From: Ferrovibrio terrae
GTDB lineage: Bacteria > Pseudomonadota > Alphaproteobacteria > Ferrovibrionales > Ferrovibrionaceae
Length of the DNA stretch: 64,000 nucleotides
Assembly (NCBI RefSeq): GCF_007197755.1
Contig: NZ_CP041636.1
Coordinates: 1,958,001 to 2,022,000 of the forward strand
Direction: 5' to 3'
The stretch's first letter is position 1. Each line of letters opens with the position of its first letter. Positions 15,009 through 35,395 of this stretch are shown here, piece by piece. Made by a program: the position numbers and the translations under genes. The notes beneath the pieces were generated by a model. It was given only the letters and a program-made list of their open reading frames with translations, was not told the DNA's origin and made no database searches.

Positions 15009-15704
15009 TCACAGGTTCCTCGGCCGATAGCCGCATCCCAGATTGTCGGGTGAGCGTGTCGACATCGGCGCCCAGTCGTAAGCCAGCAGCCGCTTCGGAT
15101 CCTCGCGCGCCCAGCGCAGCGCGTCATGCCCGATCCAGAGCCCGAAGGATGGCGGCCCCGGCGGCTCCGGCACCACCTCATAATGCGGATAGCGCACAAG
15201 AATCTGCCGTTCGTTTGTGGTGAATCGCGCCAGCAGCCGGTAGATCTGCCGCGCGAAACGGGCATGGCCTTTGTGATGCGGGGCCGTATGAATCTCTATT
15301 AATCCCTCTTTGAAACGCTCGGGCCCCTTGTCGTCGGCCGGTGTTGGCTCGGCGCCTTTCCCCAAACCGATCTGCGGCCACGACTGCCCTTCGATGCTGA
15401 CTGACCAGCGAACACCTTTATGTATGGTGAGCTTTGTCGCCGGATCGAAGTGCATTTCAATCGGATATATGAGATCTGGATCCCAGAGGCTTCGCACAAG
15501 ATGAAGCTCCGGTTGCTCGGCTCCGATCTCTTCGGCAATGGTCAGATGCCGGTTGTACAGCGCATCCGGGAAAGCTTCTTCCAGGGCTGTCGCGAACAGT
15601 TTCCAGTCCAGCGGGCTCCAGCAGACATACCGGCTAAACACGCTGGGCCGCGTCAAACGCTGGATTTTCACAATCTCTGGCTGGTCGATTTTCGCTTTCC
15701 GCAT
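15009..15704 (-). CDS. Hypothetical protein coupled to the peptidoglycan-binding protein (candidate partner or immunity)
   Basis: About 231 residues from the ATG at 15704 (a GTG at 15710 is also in frame), beginning within 10 bp of the stop of the upstream gene, so the two are translationally coupled. Soluble, no signal peptide, rich in aromatic residues and prolines ('EPPGPPSFGLWIGHDALRWA'). I recognise no family. The arrangement, a modular surface-type protein followed at once by a small soluble partner, is what effector-immunity pairs look like, but nothing in the sequence proves it. Confidence 0.7.
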   Translation of the reverse strand: MRKAKIDQPEIVKIQRLTRPSVFSRYVCWSPLDWKLFATALEEAFPDALYNRHLTIAEEIGAEQPELHLVRSLWDPDLIYPIEMHFDPATKLTIHKGVRWSVSIEGQSWPQIGLGKGAEPTPADDKGPERFKEGLIEIHTAPHHKGHARFARQIYRLLARFTTNERQILVRYPHYEVVPEPPGPPSFGLWIGHDALRWAREDPKRLLAYDWAPMSTRSPDNLGCGYRPRNL

Positions 15705-15710
15705 GGCCAC

Positions 15711-17138
15711 TCACCGGGCTGGCAGCAGGCCGTCGCGCCGCAGCTTGCTATCCAGATCATCCCACATCGCCCGACAGCGCGAGGCAACATACTTCGCATA
15801 GTCCGATTCGCTTTCGCCCGGCTTCATCTTGCGCGCCCAGCCGGCGACGCCGACTTTAATATTACTTTCCAGCTTGTCGAAGCGTCGTCCTTCGTTGGCG
15901 GTCAGGCTCAACCGGTCATGTCCGTCGCCGGCCTTCTTGATGTCGACAGTGTTCATGCGTGCGGTATAGGGCGAAGCTTGGTCAACTTTCTTATCTTGAT
16001 CATCAAGCCTGCCGAAGCTGGCATCCGGACGGCTGAACGTTTTACTTCCATCGGGCCGGATGACTTCTTCCCGCAGGTATTTATCGCTCTCATCGCCATC
16101 CTTATATGCACCTGCAACATGCTTCAGTTCGCCCGCGAGGTCCGGATAGGCCTGAAGTTCCTCCAGGCAGGTGCGCACCATGATACGGTTGGCCTTCTCG
16201 GTTTCCGGCTTGCCGCGACTGCCATATGGATTGAGTTCCACGATGATGCCGGCCAGCCCTTCGGCGACAGGCTGCTGGGCCGGCGGCAGGCCCGAGATCC
16301 ACTCCTTCGTCTCGGGCGGGATCAATCGCTCGTCGTCGGGCTGTTTGTCCGCGGCCGGTCGGCCCTGCTGTGGCGGCTTGCTCTCAGATGGTTGCAGCGG
16401 CGGCACAGTTGCGCCGGCTTTCTCCGTCTCGCCCATCGGACGTGAGGGCGGTGCATCCGGCATGGTCGGCGGATGGGTGAATGTCTCGCCACGGTTCTTC
16501 AGGTACTGCTGCCGCAGGTATTCGCTTGCGCCGATCGCCAGCGGCGCCCCCATGAGCAGCAGAGGCAGCGCCACAGGCAGCATGGTTTCCTGCTGCCCGG
16601 GTGCGGGCGGCGAAGCCGGTGCCTCATCTGTCATGCTGGTATTCAGCAATTGAATCTGCGGCTTCTGTTCCGGCCCGCGCCATTCCATGGTCTGTAAGGT
16701 TGGCTCCGGATCACCGTCACGCTTCTCCATCGTGCGGTAAGGTGGCAGCGCGTCGGGATCGCGCGCGTAAGACTCGAAGAATCTGTCGACCTGCTGTGGT
16801 GTCGGGATCGGCTGGCCGCGCAGGCGTCCGCCCAGCAGGCCCTGCAGGCTCATCAGCGTTTCGCCTTCGCCATTCTCCCCCGCCATGCCGTTGCGCAGCG
16901 GCAGCAGCAGTCCGTCGACCGGCAGCCCATTGGCCTTCTGCACCCTTCCGATGGCGCGGAACAGCGGTTCGCCGGCCCAGCCCGTCGGCACGCCCGGTGC
17001 CGGCAGTTCGTATTCGCCCAATGAGGACAGCAGCGTCTGCGCCTTGATCACATCGGCGCGATCGTTGTCGCCATTGCGGCCGACCGAGCCGGCGAAGCTG
17101 AAGGGATCGGTGTCTTCAGGGAAGGGCAGCAGGCTCAT
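15711..17138 (-). CDS. Peptidoglycan-binding-domain protein with central hydrophobic segment and unknown C-terminal domain
   Basis: 475 residues. Residues 28-80 look like a PG_binding_1 repeat ('RADVIKAQTLLSSLG' ... 'VQKANGLPVDGLL'). A proline-rich stretch follows, then one hydrophobic segment at about 187-207 ('LPVALPLLLMGAPLAIGAS'), a Pro/Glu/Lys-rich linker (215-275), and a hydrophilic C-terminal domain (about 280-475) that I do not recognise ('VRTCLEELQAYPDLAGELKH', 'AGWARKMKPGE'). There is no signal peptide, so export would need another route. A TCCGGAG ribosome site precedes the ATG. A coupled gene follows. Candidate modular toxin or cell-wall protein. Confidence 0.75.
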   Translation of the reverse strand: MSLLPFPEDTDPFSFAGSVGRNGDNDRADVIKAQTLLSSLGEYELPAPGVPTGWAGEPLFRAIGRVQKANGLPVDGLLLPLRNGMAGENGEGETLMSLQGLLGGRLRGQPIPTPQQVDRFFESYARDPDALPPYRTMEKRDGDPEPTLQTMEWRGPEQKPQIQLLNTSMTDEAPASPPAPGQQETMLPVALPLLLMGAPLAIGASEYLRQQYLKNRGETFTHPPTMPDAPPSRPMGETEKAGATVPPLQPSESKPPQQGRPAADKQPDDERLIPPETKEWISGLPPAQQPVAEGLAGIIVELNPYGSRGKPETEKANRIMVRTCLEELQAYPDLAGELKHVAGAYKDGDESDKYLREEVIRPDGSKTFSRPDASFGRLDDQDKKVDQASPYTARMNTVDIKKAGDGHDRLSLTANEGRRFDKLESNIKVGVAGWARKMKPGESESDYAKYVASRCRAMWDDLDSKLRRDGLLPAR

Positions 17139-17191: not shown

Positions 17192-17219
17192 AATGTACTA
17201 TTTATGTTCTTAATGTCAA
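17192..17219 (-). promoter_or_regulatory. Predicted promoter of the peptidoglycan-binding-protein gene
   Basis: On the minus strand a perfect -35 TTGACA (17214-17219) is followed after 16 bp by TACATT (17192-17197) in a strongly AT-rich patch (ATTATAAT at 17187-17194). The start would be near 17185, giving a leader of about 45 bases. Confidence 0.6.
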
Positions 17220-17329
17220 CTGGAGATATATGACCTGGACGAGTGGGGACTTGAATGCGGGTGTATGCATCATCGCCAGGATTTCGGGCGGCGGGTGCGG
17301 ATGGTTGGCTTGGACAATGACAAGGCGAA

Positions 17330-17470
17330 CGAACCGCTACGAACGCCAACGAAGCGCTACGAACACGCGCGAACACGCGCGAACACCAACGAGCATCAAA
17401 CGAACCGCTACGAACACCAGCGAAGCGAAACGAACGTAAACGAAGCGCTATGAACCCAAATGAGATCATT
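17330..17470. repeat. 10-bp-phased tandem repeat array, consensus CGAAC-N-C-N-A-A
   Basis: Fourteen consecutive units begin CGAA, CGAG, TGAA or TGAG at 17330, 17340, 17350, 17360, 17370, 17380, 17390, 17401, 17411, 17421, 17431, 17441, 17451 and 17461. Every step is exactly 10 bp except one of 11. The first five bases are strongly kept and the last five vary (CGCTA, ACGCG, ACCAA, GTAAA). A 10-bp period is not a codon multiple, which argues against coding, and equals about one helical turn, so the motif faces the same side of the helix throughout. It lies 190-330 bp upstream of the peptidoglycan-binding-protein gene and 150 bp past the end of lysR. Confidence 0.85.
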
Positions 17471-17575
17471 TGATACCAATGATATTACTGCCGGTATTCC
17501 CGCCTCTCATCCGCAACCCTCGGCCTTGTGTCGAGGGTCCATCTGCACGTTCCGATGCGCGGAGGGTTGGGATGG

Positions 17576-17610
17576 ATCCTCGGCCAAGAAAATGTCCTGG
17601 GCCCGAGGAT
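17576..17610. repeat. REP-like palindrome next to the lysR end
   Basis: ATCCTCGG (17576-17583) and CCGAGGAT (17603-17610) form a perfect 8-bp stem around a 19-base loop. It is flanked by GATGG and GACGGT as in the short intergenic palindromes common in alphaproteobacteria (from memory). It lies 12 bp after the lysR stop and could also act as its transcript end, though no T-run follows on that strand. A second arm, CGAGGGTCCATC at 17532-17543, is nearly complementary to 17571-17582, so alternative pairings exist. Confidence 0.5.
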
Positions 17611-17622
17611 GACGGTTTTGGT

Positions 17623-18531
17623 CTACCGCTTGCTCGCCTGCTTCACCGCATCGAGCAGCCAATCGCGGAAGGCGCGCAAGGCCGGATCGTTGCGGCGCGC
17701 CTCGGGATAAAACAGGCAGTAGGCCTGCTTGCTGCCGATGCTCTGCGTAAACGGCATCACCAGGCTGCCGTCGGCCAGTTCGGGCTCCACCAGGAAGCGT
17801 GGCACGATGGCAGCGCCCAGGCCAACGACGGCGGCCTGCACCACCATGGCGAACTGGCCATAGCGCGGGCCCAGCGTCACCTGCGGGGCCGCCATGCCGG
17901 CGGCAGTGAACCAGTCGGCCCAGGCCGAAGGCCGTGTCGATTGCTGCAGCAGCGGCAGCTTGAACAGGTCTTCCGGCTTCTTCACGCGGTGTTTCGTCAG
18001 CAGCTTTTTCGACGCCACCGGCACCAGCTCTTCCTCGATCAGGCGGTCGACTACTGCGCCAGGCCAGACCGGATCGCCGAACGAGATCGCGGCATCCAGA
18101 GGCTCGGCGGCGAAATCGAACGTCTCGATCCTTGTGGGCAGGTTCACCGTGATCTGCGGATGCTTTGCGGCAAACTCAGGCAGGCGCGGGATCAGCCAGC
18201 GCGTGCCGAAGGTAGGCAAGGTGGCGACCGTGAGGATGGCATTGCCGCTGCGCGCTGCCATGGTGTTGACGGTGGCGGCGCCGATGCGGCCCAGCGCGTC
18301 CTGGAGTTCTCTTGCGTAGCCTGCACCGGCCGGTGTCAGCACCACGCGCTGGCGGATGCGCTCGAACAGCGTGAGGCCGAGCAGTTCTTCCAGCAGCTGC
18401 ACGCGGCGGCTGACGGCGGCCTGGCTGACATTGAGTTCCGCCGCAGCCGCCGTGAAGCTCTCATGCCGCGCTGCCGCTTCAAAAGCGGTCAGCGCCGAGA
18501 GTGGCGGCAGGAAACGGCGGGGCAGGGCCAA
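17623..18531 (-). CDS. LysR-family regulator (GcvA-like), likely regulator of glutaryl-CoA genes
   Basis: 302 residues. Helix-turn-helix at about 8-66 ('PLSALTAFEAAARHESFT', 'LNVSQAAVSRRVQLLEE') and a LysR substrate domain ('ATLPTFGTRWLIPRLPEFAA', 'DAAISFGDPVWPG', 'VVGLGAAIVPRFL') of the GcvA type. It is divergent from gcdH with a 142-bp gap holding a T-N11-A palindrome. Such LysR genes next to gcdH are usually activators responding to glutarate or glutaryl-CoA; that role is inferred from context. Confidence 0.88.
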   Translation of the reverse strand: MALPRRFLPPLSALTAFEAAARHESFTAAAAELNVSQAAVSRRVQLLEELLGLTLFERIRQRVVLTPAGAGYARELQDALGRIGAATVNTMAARSGNAILTVATLPTFGTRWLIPRLPEFAAKHPQITVNLPTRIETFDFAAEPLDAAISFGDPVWPGAVVDRLIEEELVPVASKKLLTKHRVKKPEDLFKLPLLQQSTRPSAWADWFTAAGMAAPQVTLGPRYGQFAMVVQAAVVGLGAAIVPRFLVEPELADGSLVMPFTQSIGSKQAYCLFYPEARRNDPALRAFRDWLLDAVKQASKR

Positions 18532-32600: not shown

Positions 32601-35395
32601 TTGGCCGCGAGCTGGTTGACGTTATCCGTCAGATCGCGCCACAGGCCTGCGGCGCCGGGCACCTTGGCCTGGCCGCCCAGCTTGCCGTCGATGCCGACTT
32701 CGCGCGCCACGTTGGTGACCTGGTCGGCGAAGGTTGCCAGCGTCTCGATCATGAAGTTGATGGTGTCGGCCAGCGCGGCGATTTCGCCCTTGGTTTCCAC
32801 CTCCAGCTTGCGGGTCAGATCGCCCTTCGCCACGGCGGTCACCACTTCGGCGATGCCGCGCACCTGATTGGTCAGGTTCTCCGCCATCATGTTGACGTTG
32901 TCGGTGAGGTCTTTCCAGGTGCCGTCGACGCCTTCCACGCGGGCCTGGCCGCCCAGCTTGCCTTCGGTGCCGACTTCGCGGGCGACGCGGGTCACTTCCG
33001 AGGCAAACGAATTGAGCTGGTCCACCATGGTGTTGATGGTGACCTTGAGCTGAAGGATTTCGCCCTTCACGTCCACGGTGATCTTTTTCGACAAGTCGCC
33101 GGTCGCCACGGCGGTGGTGACTTCGGCGATGTTACGCACCTGGCCGGTCAGGTTGGCGGCCATGAGGTTGACGTTGTCGGTGAGGTCTTTCCAGGTGCCG
33201 GCGACGCCTTCCACGCGGGCCTGGCCGCCGAGATTGCCTTCGGTGCCGACTTCGCGCGCCACGCGGGTCACTTCCGAGGCAAACGAATTGAGCTGGTCCA
33301 CCATGGTGTTGATGGTGTTCTTGAGCTCCAGAATCTCGCCCTTCACATCCACGGTGATCTTTTTCGACAAGTCGCCCTGCGCCACGGCGGTGGTGACTTC
33401 GGCGATGTTGCGCACCTGGCCGGTCAGGTTGGTGGCCATGGCGTTGACGTTGTCGGTGAGGTCTTTCCAGGTGCCGGCGACGCCTTCCACGCGGGCCTGG
33501 CCGCCGAGATTGCCTTCGGTGCCGACTTCGCGCGCCACGCGGGTCACTTCCGAGGCGAACGAATTGAGCTGGTCCACCATGGTGTTGATGGTGTTCTTGA
33601 GCTCCAGAATCTCGCCCTTCACATCCACGGTGATTTTCTTGGACAGGTTGCCCTGCGCCACGGCGGTGGTGACTTCGGCGATGTTGCGCACCTGGCCGGT
33701 CAGGTTGGTGGCCATGGCGTTGACGTTGTCGGTGAGGTCTTTCCAGGTGCCGGCGACGCCTTCCACGCGGGCCTGGCCGCCGAGATTGCCTTCGGTACCG
33801 ACTTCGCGCGCCACGCGGGTCACTTCCGAGGCGAACGAATTGAGCTGGTCCACCATGGTGTTGATGGTGTTCTTGAGCTCCAGAATCTCGCCCTTCACAT
33901 CCACGGTGATCTTTTTCGACAAGTCGCCCTGCGCCACGGCGGTGGTGACTTCGGCGATGTTGCGCACCTGGCCGGTCAGGTTGGTGGCCATGGCGTTGAC
34001 GTTGTCGGTGAGGTCTTTCCAGGTACCGGCGACGCCTTCCACGCGGGCCTGGCCGCCGAGATTGCCTTCGGTGCCGACTTCGCGCGCCACGCGGGTCACT
34101 TCCGAGGCAAACGAATTGAGCTGGTCCACCATGGTGTTGATGGTGTTCTTCAGCTCCAGAATCTCGCCCTTCACGTCCACGGTGATTTTCTTGGACAGGT
34201 TGCCCTGCGCCACGGCGGTGGTGACTTCGGCGATGTTGCGCACCTGGCCGGTCAGGTTGGTGGCCATGGCGTTGACGTTGTCGGTGAGGTCTTTCCAGGT
34301 ACCGGCGACGCCTTCCACGCGGGCCTGGCCGCCCAGCTTGCCTTCGGTGCCGACTTCGCGCGCCACGCGGGTCACTTCCGAGGCAAACGAATTGAGCTGG
34401 TCCACCATGGTGTTGATGGTGTTCTTGAGCTGGAGGATTTCGCCCTTCACGTCCACGGTGATCTTTTTCGACAAGTCGCCGGTCGCCACCGCGGTGGTGA
34501 CTTCGGCGATGTTGCGCACCTGGCCGGTCAGGTTGGTGGCCATGGCGTTGACGTTGTCGGTGAGGTCTTTCCAGGTGCCGGCGACGCCTTCCACGCGGGC
34601 CTGGCCGCCCAGCTTGCCTTCGGTACCGACTTCGCGGGCGACGCGGGTCACTTCCGAGGCGAAGGAACCGAGCTGATCCACCATGGTGTTGATGGTGTTC
34701 TTGAGCTGAAGAATCTCACCCTTCACATCCACGGTGATCTTTTTCGACAGATCACCTTTCGCCACAGCCGTCGTCACTTCGGCGATGTTACGGACCTGGC
34801 CGGTCAGGTTGGCAGCCATCAGGTTGACGTTGTCGGTGAGGTCCTTCCAGGTGCCGGCCACACCGCGCACGCGGGCCTGACCGCCGAGATTGCCTTCGGT
34901 GCCGACTTCGCGCGCCACGCGGGTCACTTCCGAGGCGAAGGAACCGAGCTGGCCCACCATGGTGTTCACGGTCTTGCCGATGCGCAGGAATTCGCCGCGC
35001 AGAGGCCGGCCGTCGATTTCCAGCTGCATGGTTTGCGACAGGTCGCCGCGCGCCACGCTGCCAATCACGCGCGACACTTCGATGGTCGGCTGCACCAGGT
35101 CGCCGATCAGCGAATTGACCGAGGCAACGCACGAATGCCAGCCGCCTGTGGCGCCGGGCAGAGCGCCGCGCTGCCCGATCTTGCCGTCCTTGCCGACCGC
35201 AACGCCGAGGCGCTCGAATTCGCTCGCCATCATCGCATTCATCTGCACGACATCGTTGAAGGCGGCGGCGATTTCGCCTTCGATGCCAGTCAGATCGTCG
35301 GCGAGCCGCACCGAGAAGTCGCCGCGTCGGAACGCGCGCAGCGCAGCCAGAAGGTTACGGGATTGCGGATCGGGAAGAGTTGCTGTTTGCGACAT
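29609..35395 (-). CDS. Giant soluble multi-HAMP hybrid histidine kinase
   Basis: 1928 residues without any membrane helix. Residues 1-990 hold about eleven HAMP-type units of 92 residues; seven in the middle (195-838) are nearly identical, and the first two and last two have diverged. Then a GAF domain (about 995-1140), a long coiled coil (about 1145-1245), HisKA with His1259 in '[18 protein letters not shown]', HATPase ('[10 protein letters not shown]', 'VTDTGIGI', 'GGTGLGLSI'), and three receivers. Receivers 1 and 3 have full motifs ('LIVEDD', '[11 protein letters not shown]', 'ISKPVD'); the middle one is degenerate. The design matches fungal group III (Nik1/Os-1) kinases, where HAMP arrays respond to osmotic or cell-wall stress. 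Confidence 0.93.
32882..34813 (-). repeat. Seven near-identical 276-bp tandem units encoding HAMP domains
   Basis: Within the giant kinase, one 92-codon unit is repeated seven times at exactly 276 bp. It is easiest to follow as the plus-strand word for '[13 protein letters not shown]' recurring near 33190, 33466, 33742, 34018, 34294, 34570 and 34846. Units differ at only a few codons, in alternating patterns (KG/TG/QG before DLSKK or NLSKK; LQLK or LELK). Such similarity means recent duplication or ongoing gene conversion. Confidence 0.92.

Follow-up and report, generated by a model that had tools for sequence, protein, structure and literature searches.

What is a row of short repeats, each opening with nearly the same bases and each placed one helical turn after the last, doing between a regulator gene and the gene of a peptidoglycan-binding protein? 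Such an array lies at 17330-17470, on the forward strand, of the 64-kb stretch of Ferrovibrio terrae DNA analysed here (the window; C1:1958001-2022000 of the 4.26-Mb single-contig genome, G000). We propose, tentatively, that it serves as a platform for a DNA-binding protein, and we weigh this against a role as RNA, as a functionless repeat, as coding sequence and as curved DNA.

The phased array and its family in Ferrovibrio

A first-pass annotation of the window had described 14 units at exact 10-bp intervals with a single 11-bp step, and a chain search bears this out. Each unit consists of a CGAA-like core and six variable bases. The first half of the array reads CGAACCGCTA, CGAACGCCAA, CGAAGCGCTA, CGAACACGCG, CGAACACGCG, CGAACACCAA and CGAGCATCAAA, the last being the 11-bp step (17390-17400, forward strand), and the second half continues with CGAACCGCTA, CGAACACCAG, CGAAGCGAAA, CGAACGTAAA, CGAAGCGCTA, TGAACCCAAA and TGAGATCATT. 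In 200 first-order Markov sequences of 64 kb with the dinucleotide composition of the window, the longest chain had four units. Tandem Repeats Finder (TRF) gives periods of both 10 and 20 for the array, and no convincing intrinsic terminator or inverted repeat was found there. The longer, 20-bp super-period of the array family had escaped the first-pass annotation.

That annotation had described this one array and proposed a search for it in this and related genomes. The pattern CGAAN6CGAAN6CGAA matches G000 188 times (83 and 105 on the two strands), compared to none on either strand for the reversed control pattern, and the matches cluster into about 22 arrays of 8-16 units each, of which the window array is one. 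Four-unit matches occur by the dozen in five of ten Ferrovibrio genomes, two near-complete congeners have none, and eight genomes from other genera of the family contain no five-unit match; arrays were seen in no further genus of the order. When 84,980 genomes were scanned for six units, the matches listed outside Ferrovibrio were mostly tandem repeats of near-identical units at single loci. Across the arrays of five species, 454 steps measure 10 bp and eight measure 11 bp. Eleven-bp units like that of the window, of the form CGAGCA[TC]CAAA, recur in other arrays and match one half of the 21-bp units (TCAGCACCAAA-TAGACCTGAC) found at related loci.

The setting upstream of a peptidoglycan-binding-protein gene, from which the window array was first described, is accurate at this locus and does not extend to the family. 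Neighbours of the G000 arrays are functionally unrelated and include tctC, lysE, recA, the genes for ribosomal proteins S4 and L13, an alternative oxidase, mnmA, flagellin, regulators of the MarR, ArsR and AsnC types, clpB and others. Helix-phased operators and LexA boxes are already known. What appears to be new is a genus-restricted set of long phased arrays with an exchangeable vocabulary, lying beside LexA-type boxes; a limited literature search on phased intergenic arrays and on Ferrovibrio repeats returned nothing relevant, and no precedent.

LexA-type boxes and genes beside the arrays

Leftward of the window array, with its start codon 191 bp away, is a minus-strand gene (15711-17138) for a 475-aa protein with an N-terminal PG_binding_1 domain (Pfam PF01471, E 6.5e-8). 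It is followed in the same direction by a 233-aa gene (15009-15710, minus strand) that has no match in Pfam, PHROGs or NCBIfam and whose relatives sit near other boxed PG_binding_1 genes. On the opposite side a LysR-type regulator (17623-18531, minus strand; Pfam PF03466 and PF00126) turns its 3' end towards the array. A predicted sigma70-type promoter, TTGACA-16-TACATT (17192-17219, minus strand), would drive the PG_binding_1 gene leftward, and its TTGACA is retained at the G006 and G008 orthologs of this locus (L347 and L348) and in the paralogous locus L203. Between its -35 and -10 elements, as read on the minus strand, falls the box GTACTATTTATGTTC (17195-17209, forward strand), a GTAC-N7-GTTC variant of the LexA-type direct repeat. 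Comparison of leaders further revealed a partly conserved motif between box and array, GAATGC-GGGT-GTATGC (17253-17268, forward strand), with the counterpart G[AC]ATAC-N4-GTATGC at several other loci.

Boxes of this kind accompany most of the family. Under a strict GTWC-N7-GTTC pattern, 15 of the 22 G000 loci have a promoter-overlapping box within about 300 bp of the array, and by eye the count is about 18, where chance would give 0.006 boxes within 300 bp per array. Throughout G000 the fixed box pattern matches 41 times and its control once; part of the boxes that lack a CGAAC array are followed by other phased units. At most loci the box has an AT-rich spacer and lies 30-260 bp ahead of the array, overlapping a promoter of sigma70-like type, and at a few it is weak or absent. 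Seven or eight of the 22 arrays have an exact LexA-type operator box on the array strand, two have it reversed, and the window has the GTAC-N7-GTTC form.

The alphaproteobacterial LexA motif is GAAC-N7-GAAC (PMC3323433, PMC8565304), and this motif is present in the lexA promoters of eight congeners. The array-linked boxes share with the SOS operators of Alphaproteobacteria (GTTC-N7-GTTC) the 11-bp spacing of the direct repeat, the overlap with promoters and the presence at the lexA promoters of the genus; they differ in that long phased arrays accompany them. The GTAC-N7-GTTC variant, a non-canonical LexA site, is about as common here as the canonical form. Judged by their sequence, the array-linked boxes are probably bound by LexA, and those of the GTAC form may be as well, with less confidence. 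Weak second LexA_DNA_bind matches, confined to three array-bearing genomes, resemble a regulator of the AsnC/Lrp type and were set aside.

Several other features of the window deserve mention in their own right. Both the PG_binding_1 gene and the 233-aa gene (15009-17138) are related to genes at other places in the genome. A box of this kind also precedes several of these relatives, and some of them are more alike at their N-termini than at their C-termini. The two genes are possibly an SOS-controlled toxin/immunity or lysis-type pair. Beside the array, at 17516-17616, lies a separate, dispersed and partly self-complementary repeat (CCCTCGGCC..CGAGGG), apparently of REP type. It is abundant in G006 and G008, and G000, G004 and G007 also contain some copies. 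Farther along, a 276-bp tandem repeat (32816-34966; 7.8 copies, 93% matches) is contained in a 1928-aa minus-strand open reading frame (ORF) whose translation resembles a hybrid histidine kinase in which HAMP-like units are repeated.

Turnover of units and of array types

How the units change bears on whether the array is a product of replication slippage, which the first-pass annotation had raised in the form of a slippage-prone switch. In a slippage minisatellite neighbouring units would be the most alike. In G000 units differ at 3.36 of the six variable bases within arrays and at 3.33 between arrays, adjacent units are more dissimilar than expected and units two steps apart are more alike (both p ~0.002). 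Two classes of unit alternate, such that 100 of 135 classed neighbours differ, and this alternation accounts for the 20-bp super-period; it is significant in G000 only, with weaker trends in the same direction in the other genomes. The variable words are far from a product of independent columns (CGCTGG is observed 14 times against 0.1 expected), and no three-unit word or block is common to different G000 arrays, which argues against block copying between arrays there. Some duplications within arrays do occur, most clearly in G009. As the arrays were located by their CGAA core, the constancy of CGAA itself is not independent of the search.

The vocabulary of variable words is a property of the species. 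Arrays of the same genome are more alike than orthologous arrays in 30 of 37 pairs (p 2e-4, the pairs not being fully independent), a permutation of labels reached this in 0 of 5000 trials, and the flanks of the genomes compared are about equal in G+C. Given equal likeness within and between arrays, dissimilar neighbours, the lack of common blocks and the species vocabulary, the arrays appear to have evolved neither by slippage nor by block copying, and the slippage-prone switch is disfavoured. The evolution of the units fits selection by a trans-acting factor.

Position is more durable than sequence. By comparison of flanks, 17 of the 22 G000 loci group with arrays of other species, and at orthologous loci the box is retained while the array is swapped for another phased type (21-bp units, ATAAGC or AAAAC) that keeps the phasing of ~10.5 bp. 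At the mnmA locus the box GTTCGTGATATGTTCTCATAAG (GTTCGTGTTATGTTCTCATAG in G009; some differ by one tail base) is retained in four species. It is followed in G000 by CGAAC units and then 21-bp units, in G004 by ATAAGC units, in G006 mostly by 21-bp units and in G009 by AAAAC units. In G008 the same locus has ATAAG and then 21-bp units, with no box recognised within the stretch shown, and two array-less species have nothing of the array kind there. The window locus likewise carries CGAAC units in G004, a mixed array in G006 and 21-bp units in G008. Because the 21-bp unit, TCAGCACCAAA plus TAGACCTGAC, corresponds to two array half-sites, the arrays of 10, 20 and 21 bp can be read as variants of a single two-turn unit. 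Separately, the boxes at L380 (G000 3192489) and L376 (G000 2175836) precede a phased array of another kind, ACGAAACTGG CTCAAACAGG, of 20 bp, with 96% autocorrelation in L380 and a strong predicted bend.

A proposed DNA platform and its alternatives

We propose a model in which the array is a cis-acting DNA platform, a set of tandem two-turn operators beside a promoter with a LexA-type box, for a DNA-binding protein that assembles head to tail. Each operator would be 20 or 21 bp long and made of two half-sites, 10 or 11 bp each, that face the same side of the helix. The candidate protein would bind these operators cooperatively and so modulate the neighbouring promoter, which in the window would be the TTGACA-16-TACATT promoter of the PG_binding_1 gene, ~110-250 bp from the array. 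With about 22 copies, and more if other unit types are counted, the platforms would be the scattered members of a family found in one part of Ferrovibrio. A multimeric protein-binding platform was among the options of the first-pass annotation, and it is the one best supported by the retained phasing, the turnover of units, the species vocabulary and the adjacency of box and promoter, to the extent that we give it not quite an even chance. The binding protein, its polymeric nature and its effect on the promoter are what we infer from these patterns. Some observations sit less easily with a platform: over 14 units, steps of exactly 10 bp lose register with a helix of 10.5 bp per turn, the genes beside the arrays have no function in common, the box is weak or missing at a few loci, and the T-poor sense strand and constant orientation to most boxes are better explained by an RNA.

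Action as RNA is the main rival since the CGAAC strand is poor in T, weakly folded and oriented with many promoters. A boxed promoter firing rightwards would yield a short, SOS-induced, U-poor and weakly structured noncoding RNA, which might act as a protein sponge or in Rho loading. The sense strand of the CGAAC arrays has 1-4% T, is rich in C and mostly folds less than the antisense strand. Further, at 39 of 56 loci a simple score gives the better promoter as the one directed into the array, and the arrays keep to one side and orientation relative to the GTWC-N7-GTTC boxes, save for a few reversed boxes. At the window locus, however, the stronger promoter is TTGACA-16-TACATT, which points away from the array, and no clear terminator follows the array. 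Helical spacing in steps of 10, 11 and 21 bp fits DNA better, orthologous loci carry 21-bp and ATAAGC arrays in which T is visibly not scarce, and an Rfam covariance search gave no credible match. We hold an RNA role to be possible and rather doubtful. The arrays might instead be minisatellites without a function, which expand at particular intergenic positions and undergo homogenisation across loci, for they are tandem, fast-evolving and mostly intergenic, with the occasional internal duplications described above, and other bacteria carry CGAA-N6 tandem arrays. The units of those arrays are nearly identical, whereas here likeness within arrays equals that between them, neighbours are dissimilar, almost no multi-unit blocks are held in common, and different species retain the period, orientation, position and linked box. 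This explanation seems unlikely to us.

Two further explanations we consider very improbable. The arrays could encode a small (RTxxNxxExx)n protein: stops are few on the T-poor strand, the reading M[HR]HRQD.GRRV...GLDN..ANEPLRT is common to the window and its ortholog L209, and the arrays of L189 and L220 form the in-frame end of an HTH-like ORF of 262-276 aa. Yet a search of 56 arrays for starts and Shine-Dalgarno sequences in three frames found no consistent start with a ribosome-binding site, the 10- and 11-bp steps shift the frame, and TAG, TGA and TAA occur within array types at orthologous loci. A degraded coding repeat, which the first-pass annotation had considered, is thus not the general case, L189 and L220 being the exception. 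As for bent DNA, another of its suggestions, intrinsic curvature from phased A-tracts could be the conserved property, as AA dinucleotides recur with a significant period of 10-11 bp in several of the other array types, whose predicted bend is also raised; the window array (bend p 0.78) and the other CGAAC array tested (bend p 0.68) do not show this under a wedge model, so that bending is not supported as a property common to the family.

For a protein platform there are precedents. On direct repeats, BldC protects four tracts spaced by one helical turn (PMC5859096), RdfS takes up ~10 bp per protomer (PMC11963761), and for both about one protomer per 9-10 bp is found (PMC5859096, PMC11963761). 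The Ferrovibrio arrays are likewise direct repeats one helical turn apart, and they share with these BldC-type and RdfS/Xis-type winged-helix filaments the site spacing, the protomer-sized unit, a variable number of repeats and a direction near promoters. The sites in these two papers have few units, which for BldC are AT-rich direct repeats, whereas about 22 loci here bear 8-16 units each, with a core, CGAAC, that is GC-rich and a vocabulary that spans the species.

Tandem direct repeats whose unit spans one or two helical turns (10-11 or 20-22 bp) are also known from plasmid iterons and parC-type centromeres. The Ferrovibrio arrays resemble them in this, but are scattered on the chromosome beside unrelated genes, and no replication (rep) or partition gene adjoins the arrays examined. 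With REP/BIME elements and minisatellites they have in common many copies, an intergenic location and turnover between species; they differ in having no palindromic unit and in their exact one-turn phasing, alternating classes, conserved positions and linked box.

In a broader context, the 22 or more loci, mostly LexA-boxed, could make up a genus-restricted binding system tied to DNA damage. Each locus would carry a helix-phased array in the 10-bp words of its species, and co-evolution with a factor that forms polymers would change these words at all loci together, leaving box, position and phase in place. We offer this as a doubtful extension of the platform model. If true, it would be a chromosomal system not previously described and a natural experiment in which binding sites are rewritten genome-wide in each species with spacing and position retained, so that one could study directly how a multimeric DNA-binding factor and its sites evolve together. 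The arrays, and perhaps array RNAs, may thus add a new layer to the SOS response of an alphaproteobacterial genus.

Candidates for a factor linked to the arrays are the HTH-like proteins of L189 (4784-5572) and L220 (4381-5208), ORFs of 262-276 aa without a family match that contain the array, and a related small HTH ORF in L375 (1546-1797), which has a relative in L231 and, in L375, a box upstream and 10-bp units of the GATAGGCGCC type after it.
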